Shown: in pieces, positions 10,959 through 27,097 of the stretch
Numbering within the stretch: position 1 is the first letter of the stretch
Layout: every line of letters starts with the position of its first letter
From: a virus
Reading direction: 5' to 3' (one strand)
Virus record (IMG/VR): IMGVR_UViG_3300043119_000131
Coordinates: 1 to 30,618 of that record
Length of the DNA: 30,618 bases
Translations under genes and position numbers: made by a program
The notes under the pieces: generated by a model
Database searches by the model: none
The model's input: the letters and a program-made list of their open reading frames with translations, nothing else
Told to the model about the DNA's origin: nothing

Positions 10959-12847
10959 CCCCCTATCAAACATGGATTGCTAAGAGCCGTTATGCTCGGT
11001 TTTTAGACAACAAGGGACGGCGAGAGCATTGGCCTGAAACAGTAGCTCGTTATTTTGATTTTATGTCTAAGCACCTGAAAGACAACCACAGCTTTGTTTT
11101 AGAAGATGCTTTACGAGCAGAGTTGGAAGAAGCAGTTGTTGGTCTAAATGTTATGCCATCAATGCGTACTTTAATGACAGCAGGAGAGGCATTGGAGCGT
11201 CAGAACATTGCTGGCTACAATTGTGCGTATATGCCAATTGACGATGTAAAGAGCTTTGACGAGGCAATGTACATTCTTCTGTGCGGAACAGGTGTAGGCT
11301 ATAGCGTGGAGAATAAATATGTTAGCAAGTTGCCGGAGATTCCTGACACTCTATTTAGTAGCAACACTACTATTGTTGTATCCGACAGTAAAGAAGGTTG
11401 GGCTAAGGCGTTGCGCCAACTGCTTGCACTCCTTTATAGTGGGGAAATTGCTAAGTGGGACATCTCCAAGGTACGACCTGCGGGAGAACGCCTCAAGACT
11501 TTTGGTGGTCGAGCTAGTGGGCCTGAACCGTTGGTGGAGCTTTTCAAATACTGTGTGGCTAAGTTCAAAGGGGCAGCAGGACGAAAACTCACAAGTCTTG
11601 AAGCCCACGACATTCTTTGTAAAGTCGGCGAGGTGGTTGTTGTTGGTGGCGTACGTAGAAGTGCTATGATTTCCTTGTCTGACCTGTCTGACCACAAGAT
11701 GGCGACAGCAAAGGCAGGAAATTGGTGGGATACTAACGGACAACGTGCTCTTGCAAACAACAGCGCAACCTATGTCACTAAGCCGGATGTGGGTGAGTTT
11801 ATGCGTGAATGGACAAGTATTTATGAAAGCCATTCAGGTGAGCGTGGAATCTTTAATCGAGAGGCTTCAGAGAAGCAGGTAGCAAAGAATGGAAGACGTG
11901 AGACAGGACACGAGTGGGGTACAAACCCTTGCTCTGAAATCATCCTGCGTCCAAACCAGTTTTGTAACCTAAGCTCTGTTGTTGTGCGTAGCTATGACAC
12001 ACAGGAGAGCCTGTTGAAGAAGGTGAGACAAGCAACTATTCTTGGTACTTTCCAAAGCACCTTGACGAACTTTCCATATCTGCGTAAGACATGGAAAAAC
12101 AATACGGAAGAAGAACGCTTGTTAGGGGTGTCAATGACAGGTATTTTAGACAACGCTCTGTTAAATAACCCTGACGATACTCGGTTACCTGCTATTTTGG
12201 AGAAAATGAAAGATGCGGCTGTTGAAACAAATAAAGAATTTGCTTCTCTACTGGGAATCAATGCTTCTGCTGCAATTACAGCTATTAAACCTGAAGGGAC
12301 GGTAAGTCAGCTCACAGGTACTTCTAGTGGTCTTCATCCGCAGCATAGCTCGTTCTATGTGCGCCGTGTGCGCAGCGACAATAAAGACCCCCTGACAACC
12401 TTCTTGAAGGAACAGGGATTTAGCTGTGAGCCGTGTGTCTTGAAGCCTGACAGTACCAGTGTGTTTAGTTTCCCTGTTGCTGTTGCTGATGGAGCTGTGT
12501 TGCGAGAGGAACTTAACGCCATCCAGCACTTGAAGTTGTGGTTGTTATATCAGCGTCACTACTGTGAGCATAAGCCTTCTGTTACAATTTCTGTAAAAGA
12601 AGCTGAATGGCCTGAAGTTGGAGCATGGGTGTGGAATCATTTTAATGAGATTACTGGTGTGTCTTTCCTTCCTATGGATGGAGGAACATACAAGCAAGCT
12701 CCTTATACGGAATGCACAGAGGAGGAATATCTAGCTTTATTGGCTAGTAATCCAAACACCATTGAATGGGAGAAGTTTATGGAGAATACAGACAATGTTG
12801 AAGGGGTGCAGACCTTGGCCTGTGTTGCTGGTGTTTGTGAGATTTAA
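10955..12847 (+). CDS. nrdJ: Adenosylcobalamin-dependent (class II) ribonucleotide reductase
   Basis: Converts ribonucleotides to deoxyribonucleotides using adenosylcobalamin to make the thiyl radical. Catalytic residues align with the monomeric Lactobacillus leichmannii enzyme: C90 in GYNC (like C119), and NPCSEIILRPNQFC with N324, C326, E328 and C337 at the family's exact spacing (C408/C419). A C-terminal cysteine pair (C623, C628 in ACVAGVC) would re-reduce the active site. It is 630 aa against 739, so peripheral regions are trimmed. The substrate, di- or triphosphate, is inferred as triphosphate from the monomeric type. AAAGGAAG precedes ATG 10955. The host must make or import B12 for it to work. 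Confidence 0.92.
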   Translation: MTPYQTWIAKSRYARFLDNKGRREHWPETVARYFDFMSKHLKDNHSFVLEDALRAELEEAVVGLNVMPSMRTLMTAGEALERQNIAGYNCAYMPIDDVKSFDEAMYILLCGTGVGYSVENKYVSKLPEIPDTLFSSNTTIVVSDSKEGWAKALRQLLALLYSGEIAKWDISKVRPAGERLKTFGGRASGPEPLVELFKYCVAKFKGAAGRKLTSLEAHDILCKVGEVVVVGGVRRSAMISLSDLSDHKMATAKAGNWWDTNGQRALANNSATYVTKPDVGEFMREWTSIYESHSGERGIFNREASEKQVAKNGRRETGHEWGTNPCSEIILRPNQFCNLSSVVVRSYDTQESLLKKVRQATILGTFQSTLTNFPYLRKTWKNNTEEERLLGVSMTGILDNALLNNPDDTRLPAILEKMKDAAVETNKEFASLLGINASAAITAIKPEGTVSQLTGTSSGLHPQHSSFYVRRVRSDNKDPLTTFLKEQGFSCEPCVLKPDSTSVFSFPVAVADGAVLREELNAIQHLKLWLLYQRHYCEHKPSVTISVKEAEWPEVGAWVWNHFNEITGVSFLPMDGGTYKQAPYTECTEEEYLALLASNPNTIEWEKFMENTDNVEGVQTLACVAGVCEI

Positions 12848-13206
12848 TGGACAAAAAAGAAAAAAGAGCTAACTACTATCTTCGTAATAAAGAAAAAGCA
12901 GTTGCTCAAGGTAGTGCTTGGTATCGAGCTAATAAAGAAAAGACATTAGCTCGTTCTAGGTTACGACTAACAGGGGTGACACAGGAACAGTATGATGAGG
13001 CACACTTGAAACAAAAAGGTGTCTGCGCCATCTGCTCTTGTGTTTGTTCTACAGGTAAAAAACTATCTGCTGACCATTGCCACACAACAGGAGTCTTTAG
13101 AGGTCTTTTATGCGGCAAGTGTAACAAAGGACTTGGTTTATTTAATGACAATTTAACATTAATGGAGAAAGCTATGGACTATTTAAGGGAACACAATGAT
13201 TCCTAA
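12847..13206 (+). CDS. Endonuclease VII-type nuclease
   Basis: A 119-residue member of the T4 endonuclease VII (His-Me finger) family. It has zinc cysteines C60/C63 and C89/C92, catalytic DHCH (D76, H77) and N93 within CNKGLGLFN. The N-terminal region is lysine-rich with repeats like YYLRNKEKA and WYRANKEKT. T4 endonuclease VII resolves branched DNA before packaging; many small relatives are homing enzymes. It overlaps RNR by one base and the next gene by 11. RNR genes are frequent targets of phage homing nucleases, which makes that reading attractive. Confidence 0.88.
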   Translation: MDKKEKRANYYLRNKEKAVAQGSAWYRANKEKTLARSRLRLTGVTQEQYDEAHLKQKGVCAICSCVCSTGKKLSADHCHTTGVFRGLLCGKCNKGLGLFNDNLTLMEKAMDYLREHNDS

Positions 13207-13456: not shown

Positions 13457-13650
13457 TGCAAATTGATTTTGACTGGATTTCAGGACTAGCTGTTGGCATT
13501 GAAGCAGGAGCTGCTTACGAGATGGATGACGATGGGAACATTGATGACAGCTCTGTGGTAGAGAACATCACTGTCTCCCTTGGCTTCTTCCGAATGGAGA
13601 TATACTTCGGTGGAGGTGATGGAGGGAACCCTGTAGAGAAACAGGCATAG
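13456..13650 (+). CDS. Small acidic protein, last gene of the + strand block
   Basis: A 64-residue acidic product (YEMDDDGNIDDSSVVENITVSLGFFRMEIYFGGGDGG). AGGAGTAAGAAATA precedes ATG 13456, and the gene starts on the last base of the previous stop. The C-terminal half may form a beta-hairpin. Not recognised. The terminator hairpin follows after 23 bases. Confidence 0.65.
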   Translation: MQIDFDWISGLAVGIEAGAAYEMDDDGNIDDSSVVENITVSLGFFRMEIYFGGGDGGNPVEKQA

Positions 13651-13673
13651 CATTTGCTATTCGCAAACAGCAA

Positions 13674-13708
13674 AAAGCCGCTAGAGGGTATTTCCCTTTA
13701 GCGGCTTT
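13674..13708. terminator. Bidirectional rho-independent terminator between convergent gene blocks
   Basis: AAAGCCGCTA (13674-13683) pairs with TAGCGGCTTT (13699-13708), extended inward by GAGGG/CCCTT with one G-U pair to a 15-bp stem and a 5-base loop (TATTT). A-rich sequence lies on the left side (13672-13676) and T-rich sequence on the right (TTTGTTGTTT), so it can stop transcripts arriving from both directions. Confidence 0.93.
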
Positions 13709-13725
13709 GTTGTTTGTGGAGGCGA

Positions 13726-14136
13726 CTATTGCTTGCTACGAATCTCCATGATTTTCTCTAAGGTTCGTCCACCGAAATAGGCAGACATCACCAGCATTCC
13801 CCATTGACCTAACAGCTCAACATAGCTTGCCTGTGCGTTGTAGCCAAAGGCAGACATCATGGCAAAGAGGAAGTAACCCACGAAAATAGCTACAAGAGCC
13901 ATAGGTCGTATGTTCTTAGACAGCCAGCTGTCAGAAGCCATGTCAGCGTCCCAACGCTCAGAGACCCCTGCCTGTTCGGTCTTGTAGAGGTCAGTTTCGT
14001 TAGCCATCTTAGCCAGCTCTCCGCTTTGAGCAAGAACGGCTAGGTCTAGTTGTGCCTTGGCCTTGGCTTCAGGGTCGGGAATGAGCTTGTCGATGAGCTT
14101 CCCACCAACAGCTAAAAGTCCTGTAATATCAAACAT
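13726..14136 (-). CDS. Holin, 3TM/GTA-type
   Basis: The product (136 aa from ATG 14136) carries the GTA/3TM holin pattern: a short N-terminal hydrophobic helix, a charged middle with DLYKTEQAGVSERWDADMASDSWLSKNIRP, then two membrane helices (about 78-97 and 107-123) and a basic end. Holins form the membrane lesion that releases the endolysin at lysis time. I chose ATG 14136, which overlaps the upstream stop (TAATG) behind AAAGGA, instead of a longer in-frame start at 14205. It is the last gene of the minus-strand block. Confidence 0.85.
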   Translation of the reverse strand: MFDITGLLAVGGKLIDKLIPDPEAKAKAQLDLAVLAQSGELAKMANETDLYKTEQAGVSERWDADMASDSWLSKNIRPMALVAIFVGYFLFAMMSAFGYNAQASYVELLGQWGMLVMSAYFGGRTLEKIMEIRSKQ

Positions 14137-14613: not shown

Positions 14614-14772
14614 TTATGTTTTCTTTACTATAATAGTCCATTGACATATCTTCCCATCCTTTATGAACTCATTAGCCCCATAAGTAGAGCTAGGCTTAAT
14701 CTCTCTGCAAATAAGCACTAGCTGCTGCTGTGTATTGGGCCAAGGAGCTTCTGCTGAGACAGGAACTATCAA
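14614..14772 (-). CDS. Probable 52-aa gene with TTG start in the lysis cassette
   Basis: The 203-base gap between the endolysin and the next gene holds an open frame starting at TTG 14772 and ending TAA at 14614, seven bases before the next ATG. The product (VSAEAPWPNTQQQLVLICRE... ending KICQWTIIVKKT) is protein-like and has two cysteines. TAAGG lies 10 bases before the TTG; no ATG is available in this frame. It fills the gap almost perfectly, which supports it. It could be a small lysis accessory or a remnant of a longer gene. Confidence 0.5.
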   Translation of the reverse strand: MIVPVSAEAPWPNTQQQLVLICREIKPSSTYGANEFIKDGKICQWTIIVKKT

Positions 14773-14809
14773 CCGTATTTAGCCTTAGAGAGCTGGAAAT
14801 ATTCTTTAC

Positions 14810-15187
14810 TCACGGATAAACCTTTCTATCAAGCTCTATATGAGGCCCGTCCTTGAACCCTTTGAAGGTTCCACCCCAGACTAAAGGAATGTTAAGCTCC
14901 TTAGCCACACCGAGGATGTGCTGTGCAAGCTCCTCATACTTGTGGAACTCCCATGAAGCCTTCCCATCAATGAGCACACAGACATCCACAGCTTTTCCTG
15001 TTAAATGTCTGCTGTTCATGGTCTTGCTCTTACCAGCCGCTACAAGCTCTTTCTGGCGTTCTAGGGTGCGTAGGCCGTCTGTGATGCTGAAGTCGTAAGG
15101 AGGGGCTTCTATGGCCTTGTGCATCACCTTCTGTAGGTCTTCATGCACACAGGCTAAGAAAGCCTCGCTTTTAGTACCAAAGTTCAT
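14810..15187 (-). CDS. Endolysin, M15-type L-alanyl-D-glutamate peptidase
   Basis: A 125-residue zinc peptidase that cuts peptidoglycan cross-bridges after holin release. Active-site motifs: SRHLTGKAVD (H61, D68), VWGG (W104) and DGPHIEL (D113, H116), matching VanY/T5 Lys-like peptidases. There is no signal peptide, which fits holin-dependent export. It overlaps the upstream virion gene by 4 bases (ATGA), with GGAGGAATGAA as a strong ribosome-binding site. Confidence 0.92.
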   Translation of the reverse strand: MNFGTKSEAFLACVHEDLQKVMHKAIEAPPYDFSITDGLRTLERQKELVAAGKSKTMNSRHLTGKAVDVCVLIDGKASWEFHKYEELAQHILGVAKELNIPLVWGGTFKGFKDGPHIELDRKVYP

Positions 15188-19653: not shown

Positions 19654-20376
19654 TTATGTCTTAATAATGAAGAAGATACCAAGGGAAGGCTGTAAGTTTG
19701 CATCAGTACCAGACACACCTTCTGAGGAATTTGTTGTTGCTACAGTGATGCCAGTAGATGCTGAACCTGTAGTTCCTGAACCACCTGACCCTAATCCACC
19801 TGAACCAGAAGCACCGGGAGAGGCGGGGATAGTATACGAGTGTGCGTGAGTTGGGTCTGTAACTGTAGATGTTGCTGTATGTGTGTGTGTGACAACAACA
19901 GCATCTTTAGAACCTAGTGTCTGCGCTGCTGTGTATAAACCACCTGCACCGATAGGGCTACGGTTGTTGAAGTTGGGCAGATTAAAAGTTGTGCTTCCAT
20001 CTCCCACTCCGTAAGAAGTTCCAAGGAGGGCAAACAGAGCAGCATATGTGCTGCGACTAACAGCTGTTCCAGCGCACAACAAGAAGCCTGTAGGGGCTGT
20101 TGCTGTGGGCCACATTGTAATGCTTCCTGATGGGGAGGCATTGGCAATAACAAAAGCCGTAGTAGCTAGTTGTGTTGTGTTAGTACCTAAAGAAGCTGTT
20201 GGAGCAGCTGGAGTTCCTGTAAAGGTAGGAGACAAGCTATTAGCCTTTGTAGCTACAGCCGTTACGAGGTTATTAAACTCAGCATCTAGTTCAGTTCCTT
20301 TAACAATCTTTAGGGCATTGCCAGTGGAGAGACTGTCCTTAGATGCAAAGTTTGTACTTTTTGTATAATCTGTCAT
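19654..20376 (-). CDS. Tail-collar domain fibre protein
   Basis: A 240-residue receptor-interaction protein with a phage Tail_Collar (PF07484-type) domain: WPTATAPTGFLLCAGTAVSR, STYAALFALLGTSYGVGDGS and TFNLPNFNNRSPIGAG. The N-terminal stretch has fibre-type repeats (SLSPTFTGTPAAPTASLGTN). The C-terminal region holds a His-rich HTHT..THAH section, possibly metal-stabilised as in other short tail fibres. AAGGACACAC precedes ATG 20376. It lies directly after an inserted endonuclease gene. Confidence 0.85.
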   Translation of the reverse strand: MTDYTKSTNFASKDSLSTGNALKIVKGTELDAEFNNLVTAVATKANSLSPTFTGTPAAPTASLGTNTTQLATTAFVIANASPSGSITMWPTATAPTGFLLCAGTAVSRSTYAALFALLGTSYGVGDGSTTFNLPNFNNRSPIGAGGLYTAAQTLGSKDAVVVTHTHTATSTVTDPTHAHSYTIPASPGASGSGGLGSGGSGTTGSASTGITVATTNSSEGVSGTDANLQPSLGIFFIIKT

Positions 20377-20384
20377 GTGTGTCC

Positions 20385-20822
20385 TTAAACAATCTTTCCA
20401 TTTTTAATTGAGTGCTTATCAATATAAGCTATTGCTTTTGTTAAAACTAGTATAGATTCTTTTAATAATCCGATACCTGCATTACACCCATGACATAGAA
20501 GTTCTCTTACTTTACCTGTATCATGGCAGTGGTCTACATATAATTTTTGTTTTATTGCTTCTTGTTCATCAATTCCACAAATAGCACACTTATGGTTTTG
20601 TGCTATAAGAAGCGCTGTGTGTTCTTCTCTTGACATCCCATAAGATTGTTTTAAATGATAGTCTTTTCCATAGTCTCTCATTTCTTTCTTACGTTCTACA
20701 GTCATTGGTATACTTCGTATACAAGTTTTACAAATAGTTTTATGTTTACACTTCCTATCTGATGTCTTGTAATACTCTGTAATAGGCTGAATAACACCGC
20801 ACTTCTTACAACAATATGTCAT
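20385..20822 (-). CDS. Free-standing endonuclease VII-type homing nuclease
   Basis: 145 residues. The C-terminal endonuclease VII domain has C79/C82, DHCH (D97, H98), C110/C113 and N114. The N-terminal zinc finger C-x2-C (C5, C8) ... YYK ... C31-x2-C34 is shared in layout with the nucleases at 22357 and 26431. It is fitted between nozzle and collar genes: its start overlaps the nozzle stop by 4 bases and it ends eight bases before the collar start. Likely a homing enzyme that cuts a related phage's DNA at this junction; target unknown. Confidence 0.85.
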   Translation of the reverse strand: MTYCCKKCGVIQPITEYYKTSDRKCKHKTICKTCIRSIPMTVERKKEMRDYGKDYHLKQSYGMSREEHTALLIAQNHKCAICGIDEQEAIKQKLYVDHCHDTGKVRELLCHGCNAGIGLLKESILVLTKAIAYIDKHSIKNGKIV

Positions 20823-22360
20823 ACAATCTTCCCTGCCTTTGCGTGTATTTCGATTTTTTGGATACTTAAAGCACTTCCATAAATTTCGCTCTCATACCCT
20901 GTCTGTATTACCTTGCCGCTTCCTGTCGGATAAGCTACAATAGTTGTTAATGAAGTTCCGTCTGTATACTCACCAATATTATACTCTGAAACTCCGTAAT
21001 ATGCAACACTTTGTGTAGGAATTTTCACATTTTGTGCATAATAATTACCAGTGAAGTCATATCCCCATTTAACTGTTACATATTGGTCACTACCGCCAAT
21101 AACTACTGTTGATAGTTTCTTCAATACTGTAGTTACAGAAGGTTGTCCAAGGTCGGTGTGGTTAGTAAAGTATTGAAACCGATAGCTGGCTGCATTGTCT
21201 AAATAGCCTGTATATTTACCTACATAGCCAGCCTTACCGATTAATAGGCTTCCATCCCTACGACTACAGAAACAAGCAGGGGTAATACTATCCCAAGTTG
21301 TAACTCGTGCACTTCCGTCCTGTAGGGCCTGTTTTAGGTCGAAACAATACACCATGCTTAGGGAGGGTACGGTGAGTAGATAGAAGCTCTCTAAGGGGCT
21401 GTATACGCTCTTTACGAGGCTTAAATCAGTACCGTCTAATGCTCGCATCAAGTCATCACGGACATTCTTGCTCAAATCACGGAATGGAGCACTTTTCTCC
21501 TGAATGGTTCGCAGGATGCTTCGTACTCCTGTCTTAGACAAGAAGATGACATCGGTTCCTGTATTCTGCACACTATCTCTAGCAATGCAGCCGATACCAG
21601 TAATTGTATCAGACAACACCATCGTTGAAGGACTATTTGCACCTGAATATACTAATATATTTTCAGTACCAAGAATAAATAAGAAGTCATTATGTGCAGC
21701 AAGGGCAACAATTGTGTCATTACCGTTAGGCCACACAGTTGTAACATCTAATGTTCCAGCACTTCCTGTAGCATATTTCTGAGGGCTTGAAATGTCGCTC
21801 CACTGAATAAGACTCTTATCGGTGGTTGTGTCTACATTCCATACACGACCAAAAGCAGCTATACAGAAGTTGGATTGCTGAACTGTACCATTATAACCTG
21901 AAAGTTCACTAATGCGTCGATAGGTTGTGGTTGATAATGCAGCATCAAATACTAAAGGGTCATGGCCTCGTTGGAAGGCATATGCTGCTCCTCCTAGATG
22001 ACACACGCTCCAATTATCTCCTGTAATGGTTGGAGCTGTACCGCCTCCTCCGTATGTCATTTCTACAAGAGCACCGCTGTCTAGCTTAAACACCTTGTTA
22101 TTACCAGCAGCCATTGTGTATGGCGTACCGTCATCGCTAATATGCTCTGCAATTGTCTTAATTGTCGCACCATTAAGAGGAGTGCTAGTTGTGTTCTGTG
22201 GAGACCATCCCTTACGAGCACCAATACGACCAAACTTATCAATCACTGCATTATTAGCAACAAGAGCAAAACCAGAAGCTAGGTCTAAGCTGCTGTCTTG
22301 TGTGTTTAGTCCAAAGAAGCCGGGAGCTGTAATGCTATAAGTTTGTATATTTTGTGTCAC
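20819..22360 (-). CDS. Tail nozzle protein (tail tubular B / P22 gp10-like)
   Basis: A 513-residue beta-rich protein beginning with ITAPGFFGLNTQDSSLDLASGFA and NNAVIDKFGRIGARKG, the start typical of podovirus nozzle or stabilisation proteins. It goes on with repeated blades such as WNVDTTTDKSLIQWSDISSP and HNDFLFILGTENILVYSG, consistent with a beta-propeller. It would extend the tail tube below the adaptor and close it until ejection. An inserted endonuclease gene sits on each side, each overlapping by 4 bases. Confidence 0.8.
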   Translation of the reverse strand: MTQNIQTYSITAPGFFGLNTQDSSLDLASGFALVANNAVIDKFGRIGARKGWSPQNTTSTPLNGATIKTIAEHISDDGTPYTMAAGNNKVFKLDSGALVEMTYGGGGTAPTITGDNWSVCHLGGAAYAFQRGHDPLVFDAALSTTTYRRISELSGYNGTVQQSNFCIAAFGRVWNVDTTTDKSLIQWSDISSPQKYATGSAGTLDVTTVWPNGNDTIVALAAHNDFLFILGTENILVYSGANSPSTMVLSDTITGIGCIARDSVQNTGTDVIFLSKTGVRSILRTIQEKSAPFRDLSKNVRDDLMRALDGTDLSLVKSVYSPLESFYLLTVPSLSMVYCFDLKQALQDGSARVTTWDSITPACFCSRRDGSLLIGKAGYVGKYTGYLDNAASYRFQYFTNHTDLGQPSVTTVLKKLSTVVIGGSDQYVTVKWGYDFTGNYYAQNVKIPTQSVAYYGVSEYNIGEYTDGTSLTTIVAYPTGSGKVIQTGYESEIYGSALSIQKIEIHAKAGKIV

Positions 22361-22797
22361 TTATACTTCTCCAGATATTCTATACATTTGGATAATATCA
22401 GAATTGAATCCCGTGCGTGTCCTAATGCTGTATTGCAATGTTGACATATAAGTCCTCTTACCTTTTCTGTTTTATGGCAATGGTCTACAAATAGCATTTC
22501 TTTAGGAACATCTTTTGAATGTGTTTCACAAATAGCACATTTAAAGTCTTGTTCTTCTAGTTTCTTATCATACTCATCTAGACTTATACCATAACAATGT
22601 TTTAATTGTTTTCTTCGTTTCCTGAGTTTGAATTCCTCAGCAGTTAAGTTTTCTTTTAACTTTTCATAGGCATAACGCTGGTTTGTATTATGACAGTCTT
22701 TGCAGTTTTTTAGAAAACCACTTTTTTTGCTCTTTGATTTGTGAAATAAATGTTCTTCTTTATTTTCTTTACAAGTAGCACAACAAATCATGCCCAA
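22357..22797 (-). CDS. Free-standing endonuclease VII-type homing nuclease
   Basis: 146 residues. The N-terminal zinc finger (C6/C9, then FHKSKSKKSGFLKNC-x2-C at 32/35) is followed by a basic linker (KLRKRRKQLKHC) and an endonuclease VII domain with C87/C90, DHCH (D105, H106) and N122. It overlaps the adaptor stop by 10 bases and the nozzle start by 4. Sequence and layout are close to the nuclease at 20385, so the pair flanking the nozzle gene probably shares recent ancestry. Confidence 0.85.
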   Translation of the reverse strand: MGMICCATCKENKEEHLFHKSKSKKSGFLKNCKDCHNTNQRYAYEKLKENLTAEEFKLRKRRKQLKHCYGISLDEYDKKLEEQDFKCAICETHSKDVPKEMLFVDHCHKTEKVRGLICQHCNTALGHARDSILILSKCIEYLEKYK

Positions 22798-23447
22798 TTC
22801 CAGCTGTCTAGCTCGTTATATCGGCTTTGTTCAATTGCAATGTAGTCTGCTAATGCACTCTTGAACATTCCGTATGCTTCGCTATTTGTTAAGCCGCCAT
22901 CCTCACCACGCTCCACTAAAGACCGAGCAAGAGCCAACAGAATGACAGGTTCTTTAGGAACAATCATCGTGGCTGCATCAGTTGTCAGTTCATTCTGTGG
23001 CTGATAAATGTTGAAGAAGATTTGATATACACCATCAGGGATAGGGAACAAATCAACCTGAGTGTCTCCGTTACTATCTACACCGTTGAAGTTGAAGTAG
23101 TTAGGAGGGCCTTTCTGAGGAGAAGCACTGCTCAAGAAGCTCTGAGTCATACTAATACCGTCACGGCTTTCTAAGTGATAGCGGTTGGTATTGTTATAAA
23201 TCTCAATAACTTTGAAGCGAGAGCCTGTACCTACTAGGGCGTAGTTGAAGATGCCATCAGAGGTGTTAGCTGTCAAAGTTGTTGTGAGAGCGTTCCAATC
23301 GTAGGAGTCTTCAACTTGTCGTTTAGCATCGTTTACAAACTTACCGACCAGTTTAGATAGAGCGTTCTCGTTGACAGTGGTAACTTCTGGCTCACGCAAG
23401 CGAACAAGAACATCATTCACTAGGGATAGGAAAGTTGGTAAAGCCAT
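22788..23447 (-). CDS. Tail adaptor (tail tubular A / gp11-like)
   Basis: A 219-residue protein with the podovirus adaptor pattern: helical start (FLSLVNDVLVRLREPEVTTV), VNDAKRQVEDSYDWNAL, a strand-rich middle (LFPIPDGVYQIFFNIYQPQNEL) and a helical end (EPVILLALARSLVERGEDGG...). The adaptor forms the dodecameric ring between portal and nozzle. It lies directly before the nozzle gene apart from the inserted endonuclease. AAGAAATAAAC precedes ATG 23447. Confidence 0.82.
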   Translation of the reverse strand: MALPTFLSLVNDVLVRLREPEVTTVNENALSKLVGKFVNDAKRQVEDSYDWNALTTTLTANTSDGIFNYALVGTGSRFKVIEIYNNTNRYHLESRDGISMTQSFLSSASPQKGPPNYFNFNGVDSNGDTQVDLFPIPDGVYQIFFNIYQPQNELTTDAATMIVPKEPVILLALARSLVERGEDGGLTNSEAYGMFKSALADYIAIEQSRYNELDSWNWA

Positions 23448-23449
23448 GT

Positions 23450-23641
23450 TTATTTCTTCTTAGGTTTGCTTTTACCTGCCTCTGAGAGGGCAATGGCAAT
23501 TGCTTGTTTTGGATTCTTAACTACAGGGCCACCTTTGCCTGAATGGAGGGTTCCCTCTTTGTATTCCTTCATGACCTTCTCTGTCTTTGTTTTAGCTTTA
23601 TGGGTCGCTGTACGCTGACCTCGCATTGGCATGGCTTTCAT
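23450..23641 (-). CDS. Small basic protein (DUF6496-like)
   Basis: A 63-residue lysine-rich protein with the pattern KVMKEYKEGTLHSGKGGPVV followed by KQAIAIALSEAGKSK, which matches the small phage family DUF6496 found near tail and head genes. The charge suggests nucleic-acid or virion binding; function is not established. AAAGGAAACAT precedes ATG 23641. Confidence 0.75.
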   Translation of the reverse strand: MKAMPMRGQRTATHKAKTKTEKVMKEYKEGTLHSGKGGPVVKNPKQAIAIALSEAGKSKPKKK

Positions 23642-23650
23642 ATGTTTCCT

Positions 23651-23887
23651 TTATTTAATTCCGTGTGCGAATAAAAACTCTTTGAGAATATAAACTACTC
23701 CCAATATCCCCATCCAAACCAGACCAACTAGTGTCTTCTCAATGATGGCTTCTCGTAACTTAATGCTCTGAGCTTCTTTCCTAATGGCTAATCTCACCCA
23801 TTGCTGTTCTTCTTCAGTGAGGTGAGAGGAGCTTTTTAATGCTTCTGTTAGGTCTTTAATTAGTTCTAGGCGTTCATCTGAAGTCAT
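23651..23887 (-). CDS. Small membrane protein with charged N-terminus
   Basis: 78 residues. An N-terminal helical charged part (SDERLELIKDLTEALKSSSHLTEEEQQWV) is followed by one membrane helix (about residues 50-72, LVGLVWMGILGVVYILKEFLF). Similar short proteins occur among tail genes of other podoviruses; a holin-like or membrane-anchoring role is possible but not shown. An ATGA overlap couples it to the upstream gene. Confidence 0.65.
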   Translation of the reverse strand: MTSDERLELIKDLTEALKSSSHLTEEEQQWVRLAIRKEAQSIKLREAIIEKTLVGLVWMGILGVVYILKEFLFAHGIK

Positions 23888-24114
23888 GGCATTGCTGCCT
23901 TGATTTCATCGGGGGTTGTAGCAGCGTCAATAGCTGTTTGCATTTCAACATATTTAGTACGCACAGTCTGTCTTGCTGCTTCTGCTGCTGTTGCTTCAGA
24001 AGGAATAGTTGCTTTAATATCCAAAGGTGCAAACTCAGCAGACCGAGCAGCTCTCCTAGCATCATGGGCTATGTTCTTTGCCTTTGTGATGTCAATTACG
24101 ATACCCATGTCCAT
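23884..24114 (-). CDS. Small fibre-associated protein, 76 aa
   Basis: The product starts MDMGIVIDITKAKNIAHDARR and ends DAATTPDEIKAAMP, a helical layout common to small proteins encoded just after tail fibre genes, some of which assist fibre assembly. It overlaps the upstream small gene by 19 bases. Function inferred from position only. Confidence 0.6.
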   Translation of the reverse strand: MDMGIVIDITKAKNIAHDARRAARSAEFAPLDIKATIPSEATAAEAARQTVRTKYVEMQTAIDAATTPDEIKAAMP

Positions 24115-24287
24115 GCTCCTCTAAATGTTCGGTCTGATGGAATGTCTGCAACATCCACAATCTTGAATGGCTTGCCTTCAGGAACATCCTTGGCGGCAAT
24201 TTCCTCAATGGTTAAACCGCACTCAGCGGCTGGAATAATGACAGCCACACCACCATCGTCTGTTGGATAAATAATTCTTTGGTTCAT
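24096..24287 (-). CDS. Small fibre-associated protein, 63 aa
   Basis: The C-terminus has the pattern DVADIPSDRTFRGAWTW, which recurs in a family of small proteins next to phage tail fibre genes and is sometimes linked to fibre assembly. ATG 24287 lies within the third copy of the stop-SD-start cassette, whose TGA is the fibre stop codon, so translation is probably coupled to fibre translation. Confidence 0.7.
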   Translation of the reverse strand: MNQRIIYPTDDGGVAVIIPAAECGLTIEEIAAKDVPEGKPFKIVDVADIPSDRTFRGAWTWVS

Positions 24288-24299
24288 TTTGTTCTTTCA
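24284..24299 (-). repeat. Stop-SD-start cassette, copy 3
   Basis: On the minus strand this reads TGAAAGAACAAAATGA, one substitution away from the two + strand copies (5113-5128, 5439-5454); the match to copy 1 extends two further bases (AC). The TGA is the tail fibre stop and the ATG starts the next gene. Confidence 0.6.
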
Positions 24300-26441
24300 G
24301 CGGAAAATAGAGACACAAACTAATGCTTGGTCTCTCAATGTTTGCGAAACAGAGAAATACCCAGTTTGCACTCTTACGCTTGTTGTAGAAAGCGCTATGG
24401 GATTAGATTGGTCGCTGGGCGTAGGCGATACGTAAGGGTAGTTAATTGCGCTTGATGTATTAACACCATAATTTACATCCGATATAGCAGTCGTGAAGTT
24501 AACTGTGTAATCACCAGTGCCGTTATCGGTAATACTCGACACATTCCCGCTTGCACGAATAGCTACAGTGCCTGTGCCGTTGAAGTTTACCCATGCACGG
24601 CAACCGTAAGCAGTGGCGGCGGAACCGTATCCTGAGTTAAACAACAAGTTGCCGCTGGAGTCGATACGCATACGCTCGTTTGCACCAGCCCGGATGCGAA
24701 AGTCATACAGACCGCCAGCATTTGTCGTGATTGTTTCAAGAGAAAACTGCACCGCTGGACTTGTTGTATCGCTTGATGCGAAATCAATACGACCAGTAAC
24801 GTCATTTGCCGATTGAGATGTGTTGCTGTTACGCAGTGTTAATACACCGCCGCCAGACTGAGAAACTTCAAGCAAACTTCCCGGCGAAGCAGTACCAATA
24901 CCTACATTACCTGCAAAATAGTTCTGCGCTGTTCCTGACGCATAGATGTTCCACTTGTCCGTGCCACTAGAAACAAACGATGCGATACCGTAATTGTTTG
25001 TTCCCTGAGTTTGGTTGGCAATGTAAAGGCCGTACTGACTGGTGATGGTAGAACCTGCGCCCTTGGTTACATCATCTACTTGATGACCAGCTACCAAGGT
25101 AGTGGTGTAGGAAGCTGCTTCTGTTGAAAGGGCGGTGTACGTGCCTCGAACGGAAGCTGTACCAGCTTGCGAACCAGTTACTCCAATACGAACACCGTAC
25201 TGATTTGTTCCTGCCAAAGCTGAGTTTCTGACATACATTGCGGCTGCGGAACTCACGGCTCCTCCAGTCGCCATATACCCATTGACAGTCACAGTGTCTG
25301 TAGTTGCATCTCCAAGGGTAGTGTTGCCTGTGACATTTGCAGTGCCATTTACGGAAAGTGTTGAAGATGGAGAAGTAGTACCAACACCAACATTACCTGC
25401 GTTAGTAACAACAAAAGGTGTTGAGTCGGGGTTGGCAGCATCTTCAACTAATAAAGAATTGCCTGTTCCTGTATTGGTAATGCGTAAAGCGTCAGTAGAC
25501 GAACTAGCAACAATTGTTGCACTTGAAATGTCTGTAATTGTTCCACCAGTGATGGCTACAGCATTAGCATTCTGAGTGGCAAGAGAGCCGAGTCCTAAGT
25601 TTGTTCTTGATGTAGATGCGCTTGATACATCAGATAGGTTATTAGCAGCAACCAGTGTCCCTGCACCGGAAACATAAGCAGCAACCCATGCACTGCCTGT
25701 GTAAACCTTCATAACAGCACTACCAGTATTAAAATACAGAGCACCTGTTAGCAAAGCATTGCCATCATTGTCTACTGTTGGGTCAGTAGTCTTTTCACCC
25801 AAATATTTATCATCAAAATTATCAAAAGCAGCAAGGGCTTGGTCTCTGGCAGCAGCCGAAGCAATAGCAGATGTGGCAGCATCAGTGGCTGATGTTGCAG
25901 CGTTAGAAGCCTGTGTGGTGGCTGTAGCCGCAGATGTAGAAGCCCCTGATGCGCTAGTAGCTGCATTAGATGCTTGAGTTGTCGCTATCCCTGCCTGTGT
26001 GGTTGCTGTCGAAGCTGAAGCAGCAGCATTGGTTGCGCTTGTCGAAGCATTGGACGCTTGTGTGGAGGCATTAGATGCTGATGTAGAAGCATTGGACGCA
26101 CTAGTGGATGCCGCTGATGCACTTGTGGAGGCATTAGAGGCACTTGTAGCAGCCTCTGACGCGCTGGTTGAGGCCGAACTAGCCGAACTAGCTACGGACG
26201 CAACAGAGGCCTCTGCGGAGCTTGCAGAGGAACTGGCAGCAGATGCGCTATTGGCTGCGCTTGTGGCACTAGCAGCAGCTGCTGTAGCTGATGTAGCTGC
26301 AAGTTCTGCTTGAACGGTAGCAGCTGCCGTGAAGCCAGCAATGGTGCTCACTTCAATATCTGTTGTGGCATCTCCTCCACCACCGACACCACGGTAAATC
26401 GTGCATTTTAGATGCTTGTGTTTTGGAAAATCACAGAACAA
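24297..26441 (-). CDS. Tail fibre protein, 714 aa, TTG start
   Basis: Receptor-binding fibre. After a short N-terminal segment (TIYRGVGGGGDATTDIEV, near residue 14) comes a long Ala/Ser/Thr repeat (about 50-210, ASTSASNAS-like units) expected to form a trimeric coiled coil. Beta-rich sections follow, including LYFNTGSAVMKVYTGSAWVA, NLSDVSSASTSRTNLGLGSL and two copies of an NVG[VI]GT-SP motif. The C-terminus has no visible chaperone domain. The only usable start is TTG 26441, seven bases after AAAGGGG, and it lies inside the end of an HNH gene. The first dozen residues (FCDFPKHKHLK) do not look like a fibre N-terminus, so the original start was probably changed when the nuclease gene arrived. 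Confidence 0.85.
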   Translation of the reverse strand: MFCDFPKHKHLKCTIYRGVGGGGDATTDIEVSTIAGFTAAATVQAELAATSATAAAASATSAANSASAASSSASSAEASVASVASSASSASTSASEAATSASNASTSASAASTSASNASTSASNASTQASNASTSATNAAASASTATTQAGIATTQASNAATSASGASTSAATATTQASNAATSATDAATSAIASAAARDQALAAFDNFDDKYLGEKTTDPTVDNDGNALLTGALYFNTGSAVMKVYTGSAWVAAYVSGAGTLVAANNLSDVSSASTSRTNLGLGSLATQNANAVAITGGTITDISSATIVASSSTDALRITNTGTGNSLLVEDAANPDSTPFVVTNAGNVGVGTTSPSSTLSVNGTANVTGNTTLGDATTDTVTVNGYMATGGAVSSAAAMYVRNSALAGTNQYGVRIGVTGSQAGTASVRGTYTALSTEAASYTTTLVAGHQVDDVTKGAGSTITSQYGLYIANQTQGTNNYGIASFVSSGTDKWNIYASGTAQNYFAGNVGIGTASPGSLLEVSQSGGGVLTLRNSNTSQSANDVTGRIDFASSDTTSPAVQFSLETITTNAGGLYDFRIRAGANERMRIDSSGNLLFNSGYGSAATAYGCRAWVNFNGTGTVAIRASGNVSSITDNGTGDYTVNFTTAISDVNYGVNTSSAINYPYVSPTPSDQSNPIALSTTSVRVQTGYFSVSQTLRDQALVCVSIFR

Positions 26442-26934
26442 TTCTATTCCCCTTTTGTATGTTTGTTATGGCAGGAATTACCTGCAAGTTCCACGGAACG
26501 TGTAAACCACATACTTTCTTTCCTTTAAGCGGAACAATATGGTCTACATGATACTGCGAGTTCATTACACTTGAAGTCCACTGAGCTAATAAATATTCTG
26601 TCTGAATGTTTTTATAGTCTTCCTCAGTTAACCAAGGAGGAGAAGCATTTAACTTTCGTGTTCGATAGTTACTTGCTTTTGCACAGTTCTTACCTTTATT
26701 TAGTCTTACCCACAAACTGTTATATATTTTATTTGCAGCTTTTGCTTTATCTAAGTTTGCGTAATACCAAGTTGAGGCTCGTTGTTTTGCTTTTTCTCTG
26801 TTTTTAGCAGAATAAGCATTGTCCATAATCCTCTTACATTCTCTACATTCTGTAGAAACTCCATCATTTTTACTTTTGTTTTTTCCGTATTCGGTTAAGT
26901 TTTTTAACTCTCCGCAGCTATAACAAAGTTTCAA
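26431..26934 (-). CDS. HNH homing endonuclease with N-terminal zinc finger, TTG start
   Basis: 167 residues. The N-terminal finger C4-x2-C7 ... C30-x2-C33 matches the layout in the nucleases at 20385 and 22357, but here it is joined to a classical HNH domain: YHVDHIVPLKGK (D131, H132), WNLQVIP (N149) and NIQKGNR (N158). The start is TTG 26934 with AAGGAAAC nearby, inside the preceding small gene. The 3' end overlaps the fibre start by 11 bases. Likely a mobile gene placed before the fibre gene. Confidence 0.83.
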   Translation of the reverse strand: MKLCYSCGELKNLTEYGKNKSKNDGVSTECRECKRIMDNAYSAKNREKAKQRASTWYYANLDKAKAANKIYNSLWVRLNKGKNCAKASNYRTRKLNASPPWLTEEDYKNIQTEYLLAQWTSSVMNSQYHVDHIVPLKGKKVCGLHVPWNLQVIPAITNIQKGNRIVL

Positions 26935-27097
26935 GAGCTGTTTCCTTCTTTTTGGCTTGTTTTACAGGCTTCTGTACAACTTCTTGTACAGCTTCTTCTT
27001 CAACAGCAGAATATTCAGCGTGTTTTAACATCTCTCTGATGTCTTGTTCAACCAAATATTCGTAAACTTGTCCGGTGTGTACACATTTAAATTTCAT
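26918..27097 (-). CDS. Small capsid-downstream protein, 59 aa
   Basis: ATG 27097 follows AAAGGAGAACCT, one of the best ribosome-binding sites in the window. The product begins MKFKCVHTGQVYEYLVEQDI and turns Glu/Lys-rich toward the end (AVEEEAVQEVVQKPVKQAKKK). Short proteins of this kind occur next to capsid genes in podoviruses, but the function is not known to me. It lies after the capsid terminator and is overlapped at its 3' end by the HNH gene. Confidence 0.65.
   Translation of the reverse strand: MKFKCVHTGQVYEYLVEQDIREMLKHAEYSAVEEEAVQEVVQKPVKQAKKKETALETLL

Follow-up and report, generated by a model that had tools for sequence, protein, structure and literature searches.

Modular zinc fingers are already known in phage homing nucleases of the T5orf172 class, so the principle of a modular DNA-binding part is not new (PMC10448857). 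In ICP1 and its relatives, zinc-finger DNA-binding parts of the CapR/DUF723 type are repeated and shuffled among these homing endonucleases, and their genes lie beside essential virion genes (PMC10448857). The T5orf172 proteins have another nuclease fold and another finger (CapR CxxC..CxC), and the shuffling was shown within that class (PMC10448857), whereas the head described here serves three other cores. The ShiLan-domain HNH element likewise combines an HNH nuclease with zinc fingers and has a disjunct distribution (PMC11855218). Its authors compare a segment brought in by the insertion with target-gene sequence past the insertion point (PMC11855218), a situation comparable to the repeated gene end described below. 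It differs in being placed within a methylase gene, in a different frame, and in having zinc fingers that flank the HNH domain (PMC11855218).

F-CphI of cyanophage S-PM2 was demonstrated in vitro to be a homing endonuclease with an Endo VII catalytic motif, assigned to the DHHRN / Endo VII-type family (PMC6083498). As far as consulted, that paper discusses only the C-terminal catalytic motif and does not describe a head. The head profile built here matches F-CphI at E 3.2e-8, and an Endo VII core follows. F-CphI therefore resembles two of the genes examined here, EVII1 and EVII2, in being a free-standing gene with the same zinc head at the front and an Endo VII core at the C-terminus. It differs in its target, as it cuts psbA and a nearby intron protects it (PMC6083498), whereas the genes studied here occupy virion-gene junctions, and no intron was noticed with them. 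Among cultured phages, gp13.5 of EcoDS1 (Kayfunavirus, E. coli) has a zinc head and an Endo VII core and lies between virion genes 13 and 14, at another site and with other neighbors.

A structural counterpart is the restriction enzyme Hpy99I (PDB 3FC3, 3GOX). A profile of headed Endo VII proteins aligns to it over both head and core (E 2.4e-21, residues 75-199). In addition, the first Cys4 unit (Hpy99I 64-106) superposes on the head of the HNH3 model (residues 1-40) with Z 5.7, an rmsd of 1.5 Å over 39 aligned residues, and 31% identity. A head-only profile searched against PDB sequences gives a weak Hpy99I match (E 0.48), so the connection is drawn from the joint profile together with the structure. 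On these models, the match shows a shared fold and not sequence reading. Hpy99I also carries extra residues before its head, whereas the proteins considered here start directly at the head.

Nuclease genes and their shared zinc head

The stretch analyzed here (the window) is an IMG/VR record of 30,618 bases that encodes a family A DNA polymerase, a ribonucleotide reductase, a major capsid protein, an SU10-type adaptor, and tail genes. A megablast search of 20.6 kb of it against cultured phages returned no match. Four nuclease genes lie between other window genes. Three of them are on the minus strand, at the positions given in an earlier note: EVII1 (20385-20822, 145 aa), EVII2 (22357-22797), and HNH3 (26431-26934, 167 aa). 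The fourth, EVII4 (12847-13206, plus strand, 119 aa), directly follows the ribonucleotide reductase gene. EVII1, EVII2, and EVII4 match Pfam Endonuclease_7 with E-values of 1.1e-21, 2.1e-21, and 2.7e-20, respectively, which agrees with the Endo VII assignment in the earlier note. EVII1, EVII2, and HNH3 are best read as optional homing endonucleases of known kinds that share a partly exchangeable arm, which the sources found do not describe. What is new is the head itself, its occurrence with three different cores, the use of shared insertion sites, and a ladder of 15-residue repeats.

EVII1, EVII2, and HNH3 have in common an N-terminal zinc head with the pattern Cx2C-x22-Cx2C. It occupies residues 1-38 of EVII1 (20709-20822; C5, C8, C31, C34) and of HNH3 (26821-26934), and lies at 22678-22791 in EVII2. 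Profiles of the first ~40 residues, built separately for the Endo VII family, the HNH family, and a third nuclease family from related phages, match one another with probabilities of 98.6-99.3%, whereas the core profiles of the same families do so at 1-4%. Against the 158 window ORFs, the head profile returned only HNH3 (2.9e-12), EVII1 (5.6e-9), and EVII2 (4.3e-8), with the next best match at E 51. This also bears out the earlier observation that the Endo VII protein at 12847 has no zinc head.

Profiles with one family left out were equally informative. A profile of HNH and third-nuclease heads recognized the Endo VII heads at E 1.5e-5 and 2.5e-5, and a profile of Endo VII and third-nuclease heads recognized the HNH head at E 4.7e-8. 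Because omitted families are still recognized, the heads are homologous across unrelated cores, as the earlier note had proposed for the three window proteins, and a chance Cx2C pattern is excluded. The cysteines at alignment positions C5, C8, C31, and C34 are invariant in all three head families, including the 38 homologs of the EVII1 family. AlphaFold models of EVII1 (pLDDT 94.9) and HNH3 (pLDDT 91.3), each computed for one chain with neither DNA nor zinc, place head strands at 2-4, 11-13, 17-19, and 27-31 and a helix from 32, at identical positions. The folds of these two heads thus agree, where unrelated folds would have spoken against a common head.

Neither Pfam nor NCBIfam contains a model that matches the head above threshold. 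In PHROGs, the head lies inside many families, some of which carry no nuclease annotation. In PHROG 5767, 12813, 6611, and 6762, it matches the C-terminal end; these families are not annotated as nucleases, and one is labeled a sigma factor. A small window ORF at 2565-2879 has a CxxC..CxxC pattern but matches neither the head profile nor Pfam.

The cores behind the head are of at least three types (Endo VII, HNH, and the third nuclease), a lower bound drawn from a carrier set biased towards the queries used. In the EVII1 and EVII2 family, the Endo VII motif (CX2-4C, D-H-x-H, R, CX2C, N) is present, and C79, C82, D97, H98, H100, R106, C110, C113, and N114 are invariant in 38 homologs. The Pfam match covers the C-terminal part, namely residues 56-135 of 145 in EVII1 (20418-20657) and 64-144 of 146 in EVII2 (22366-22608). 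The EVII1 model aligns structurally with T4 Endo VII (Z 6.9) and Hpy99I (Z 6.3) over the core only.

The HNH3 core (residues 96-167, 26434-26649) has no Pfam or NCBIfam match, and the HNH3 profile has none among PDB sequences. It shows a conserved HNH-like pattern (HVDHIVPL..CGLHVPWNLQV..N..K) in 61 homologs, and its best structural fits are FnCas9 HNH domains, at middling Z-scores of 4.5-4.7. With this motif and these fits, the core is described here as HNH-like, where the earlier note spoke of a classical HNH domain. The third headed nuclease has a core of the form ..SPSIDRIDS.KGYT.DNIQIISWKANR.K, has no Pfam match above threshold, and occurs at L007 2819-3355, at L065 4298-4843, and in about 80 others (L numbers denote related loci).

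Insertion sites and mobility

The headed nuclease genes lie at three junctions among the tail genes, all on the minus strand. Site A joins the SU10-type adaptor gene (22788-23447; Pfam SU10_adaptor E 1.4e-10) to a 513-aa tail gene, t513 (20819-22360, GTG start), and carries EVII2. Site B joins t513 to the collar-domain gene (19654-20376; Pfam Collar E 8.8e-23) and carries EVII1. Site C, occupied by HNH3, lies between a 59-aa gene (26919-27097), whose final codons overlap the HNH3 start, and the tail fiber gene (24297-26441), whose TTG start at 26441 is inside the HNH3 end. The overlaps of 4-17 bases reported earlier are present as described.

There are 509 stretches related to t513 in viral contigs. 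Use of t513 as the query yielded 80 related loci, in which sites A and B were each readable in 79. Site A holds an Endo VII gene in 6/79 loci and is directly joined in 73/79. Site B is occupied in 12/79 (five EVII1-type genes and seven of the third nuclease) and directly joined in 67/79. At empty junctions, the flanking genes meet within 0-26 bases. The empty site A reads ..GGCATGACACAA.. in L005-L007 and L009-L012 (in L005, ..GGAATTGGGCATGACACAACAAATAC..). The empty site B, found in L005, L006, L009, and others, reads ..GGCAAGATTGTTTAAGGACACAC... At site C, the HNH3 gene is present in L004 and L011 and absent from the same junction in L009, L013, L015, L018, L020, and L022. The nuclease genes are therefore optional and sit seamlessly at precise junctions, rather than being ancestral and fixed. 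Junction sequences also show both flanking genes left intact, and the proposal that insertion costs little or no sequence holds, as almost none is lost relative to empty relatives.

The details of each junction differ. At site A, EVII2 splits an ATGA overlap of empty phages, so EVII2 can start at the old ATG while t513 now starts at GTG. The EVII2 start is more likely the ATG at 22791 (MICC..), with which the following gene starts in empty relatives. At site B, EVII1 has the C-terminal tail KNGKIV (20388-20405), which repeats the t513 end AKNGKIV seen in empty relatives. Similar end pairs occur in several other carriers, so insertion seems to duplicate the last t513 codons in at least some of them. 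At site C, the fiber start changes from ATG in empty L013 and L015 to TTG in the window, and the N-terminus reads MFCDFPKHKHLKCTIYRG in the window versus MFCDFPKHKHVKSTIYRG in L013. A frameshifted fiber start, with ATGCACG near 26405 taken as a broken ATGACG, was rejected because L013 and L015 share the longer N-terminus MFCDFPKHKH.. and differ by the ATG to TTG change only.

Among carriers fetched with nuclease queries, a set that is biased by those queries and in which some contigs were fetched twice, the third nuclease lies at site B in 83/84 placed copies, and the remaining copy abuts the same tail gene. In the same biased set, Endo VII copies with a recognized flank number 35 at site A and 21 at site B. 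One HNH-type gene was found at site A (L149). A further slot follows the ribonucleotide reductase gene, where the window has EVII4, L162 a headed HNH gene, L242 a headed Endo VII gene, and L021 nothing, so that the reductase gene of L021 abuts gene 13196. Just upstream of a ribonucleotide reductase gene, L340-L343, L345, and L349 encode Endo VII proteins, most of which are preceded by two tandem zinc-ribbon-like units.

Fifteen-residue repeats as a second module

The HNH proteins carry a linker between head and core that consists of tandem 15-residue helical repeats with the pattern Y/W...NKE/DK. In HNH3, the linker spans 26650-26820 (repeats NREKAKQRASTWYYA / NLDKAKAANKIY..), and the model places helices at 32-45, 47-60, 62-79, and 81-96. 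Self-similarity across 53 homologous linkers peaks at lag 15 (z 21.6) and lag 30 (z 15.7), whereas the other lags from 5 to 29 remain below 2. Linker lengths also favor steps of 15 (59, 74, and 89). Such regular steps point to a spacer between the gripping and the cutting part whose length can be adjusted.

These repeats represent a second shared module, which the earlier note had missed. A repeat profile from which the window's own family had been left out matched only two window proteins, HNH3 (E 4e-5) and EVII4 (E 6.2e-5). Two 15-aa repeats like those of the HNH3 linker form the start of EVII4. The best relative of EVII4, in L339, unites head, repeats, and Endo VII core in one protein. As judged from these architectures, the two modules reassort: head and core in EVII1 and EVII2, head, repeats, and core in HNH3, and repeats and core in EVII4. 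Separately, an ORF at L163 2-487, close to a headed HNH gene, joins 15-aa repeats to an unrelated C-terminal part; it may represent a gene fusion or an assembly fault.

Head replacement, the question of targeting, and probable recent turnover

We consider it probable that EVII1, EVII2, and HNH3 are optional free-standing homing endonucleases built from a DNA-gripping arm and a cutting core, a reading in which we infer cleavage, homing, and contact between head and DNA. In a mixed infection, the enzyme would cut a competing phage at its empty junction, and repair templated by the carrier would copy the nuclease gene into the cut. The arm would begin with a Cys4 zinc head resembling the first repeat of Hpy99I, extended in the HNH protein by a rod of 15-residue helical repeats, and the cutting core would be an Endo VII or HNH domain. 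Most likely, the head touches DNA and helps to hold and orient the core, with specificity probably divided among head, linker, and core. Arm and core would be separable over evolutionary time, so that heads get replaced. An extension of this model, which we regard as rather unlikely, is that head and 15-residue repeats form a swappable and length-adjustable DNA-addressing arm recombined between unrelated cutting domains, whereby arm exchange and the gain or loss of rungs would retarget the nuclease or overcome resistant targets.

Two comparisons within the HNH family illustrate this separability. Between L100 and L158, a block of ~250 bp corresponding to head and linker differs; DNA similarity drops abruptly at this block, its sides are 76% and 82% identical, and cores and both flanks stay alike. 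Between L129 and L141, the differing block is ~110 bp and comprises the head only, again with core and both flanks alike; very fast local divergence may be an alternative to replacement in this pair. The insertion site is unchanged in both cases. These alignments support a head that is separable and exchangeable within the HNH family and that is not by itself the insertion-site address. The earlier idea of a modular head exchanged between cores is thereby backed within this family, while exchange between different core types would have been an old event. Two further apparent swaps with core identity 1.0 (L336) were discarded, since the ORF involved reaches the end of its locus, which is 361 bases long.

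How much of the target is read by the head is the point on which explanations diverge. The reading first proposed holds that the head is the true address, which alone reads the target, so that a head swap retargets the nuclease. Between sites A and B, Endo VII cores are 54% identical and heads 20%, whereas heads within one site are 53-74% identical, as expected if the head is tuned to its site; the replacement of heads while cores persist points the same way. Yet Endo VII and third-type heads at site B are only 18% identical, not above any cross-core pair, so a strict rule that heads follow sites across cores is not supported and the head cannot be the sole address. Both replacements, moreover, left the site unchanged, sites A and B may each represent one clade, which would reduce the covariation to one event, and ~38 residues make a small Cys4 module for specifying a unique site. 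A review describes such motifs in HNH restriction enzymes as structural rather than sequence-reading (PMC4081073). The term targeting head is thus sustained by the divergence of Endo VII heads between sites and weakened by same-site heads and replacements, and a head acting alone as the address appears rather unlikely. The converse explanation, in which the head is a folding or structural part only and specificity lies wholly in linker and core, can account for the differing same-site heads and for proteins such as EVII4 at 12847, which lack the head but keep an intact core, and is in line with the zinc that maintains the fold in HNH enzymes (PMC4081073). It is likewise doubtful, as the head is a separate zinc unit with four cysteines strictly conserved across three unrelated cores, and its Hpy99I counterpart lies within the N-terminal region responsible for DNA binding and dimerization (PMC3765158).

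Two other explanations concern the nature of the genes and the origin of the head. The Pfam domain name, Recombination endonuclease VII, would suggest phage Holliday-junction resolvases or packaging nucleases instead of mobile elements. This is improbable for genes that most close relatives lack, without another gene at the site to compensate, and of which one genome can hold several copies. T4 Endo VII itself aligns to the core only, with profile positions 63-125 matching T4 residues 7-73, rather than over the full length with the motif at the N-terminus, whereas the homing enzyme F-CphI (PMC6083498) has the head and core layout. Independent gain of a similar zinc ribbon by each core has in its favor that Cx2C pairs are common, as the unrelated ORF at 2565-2879 illustrates by fitting the bare cysteine pattern. 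Such convergence is very improbable, because non-cysteine positions match too, left-out profiles recognize heads at 1e-5 to 1e-8, and EVII1 and HNH3 heads share one predicted fold.

A single zinc head, unmodeled in Pfam, connects phage nucleases of the Endo VII type, the HNH type, and a third class, and is tied both to a DNA-bound enzyme of solved structure (Hpy99I) and to an enzyme whose homing activity is proven (F-CphI). Natural experiments are at hand: one site holds different cores in different phages, a single core family occurs at two sites, and heads have been replaced by themselves. Such natural chimeras make target-setting in phage homing nucleases directly testable.

Turnover of these genes appears to be recent in places. 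Over 13.6 kb, L004 matches the window at 99.96% identity, and it also carries EVII1, EVII2, and HNH3; it is nearly the same phage and does not count as an independent carrier at sites A-C. It has a further headed Endo VII gene (13573-14036) in the 3' end of an M15 peptidase gene, which is absent from the window. There, the peptidase 3' end differs, and the nuclease frame runs into GPHFQLSKAKYG, the 3' end seen in the empty L006. The window retains at 14769-14812 (end of 14810-15187) a 31-base remnant (..TTTCCAGCTCTCTAAGGCTAAATACGGTTGA) of the L006-type end, behind its own different M15 peptidase end; among possible recombination histories, this sequence looks like the trace of a homing gene gained and lost.
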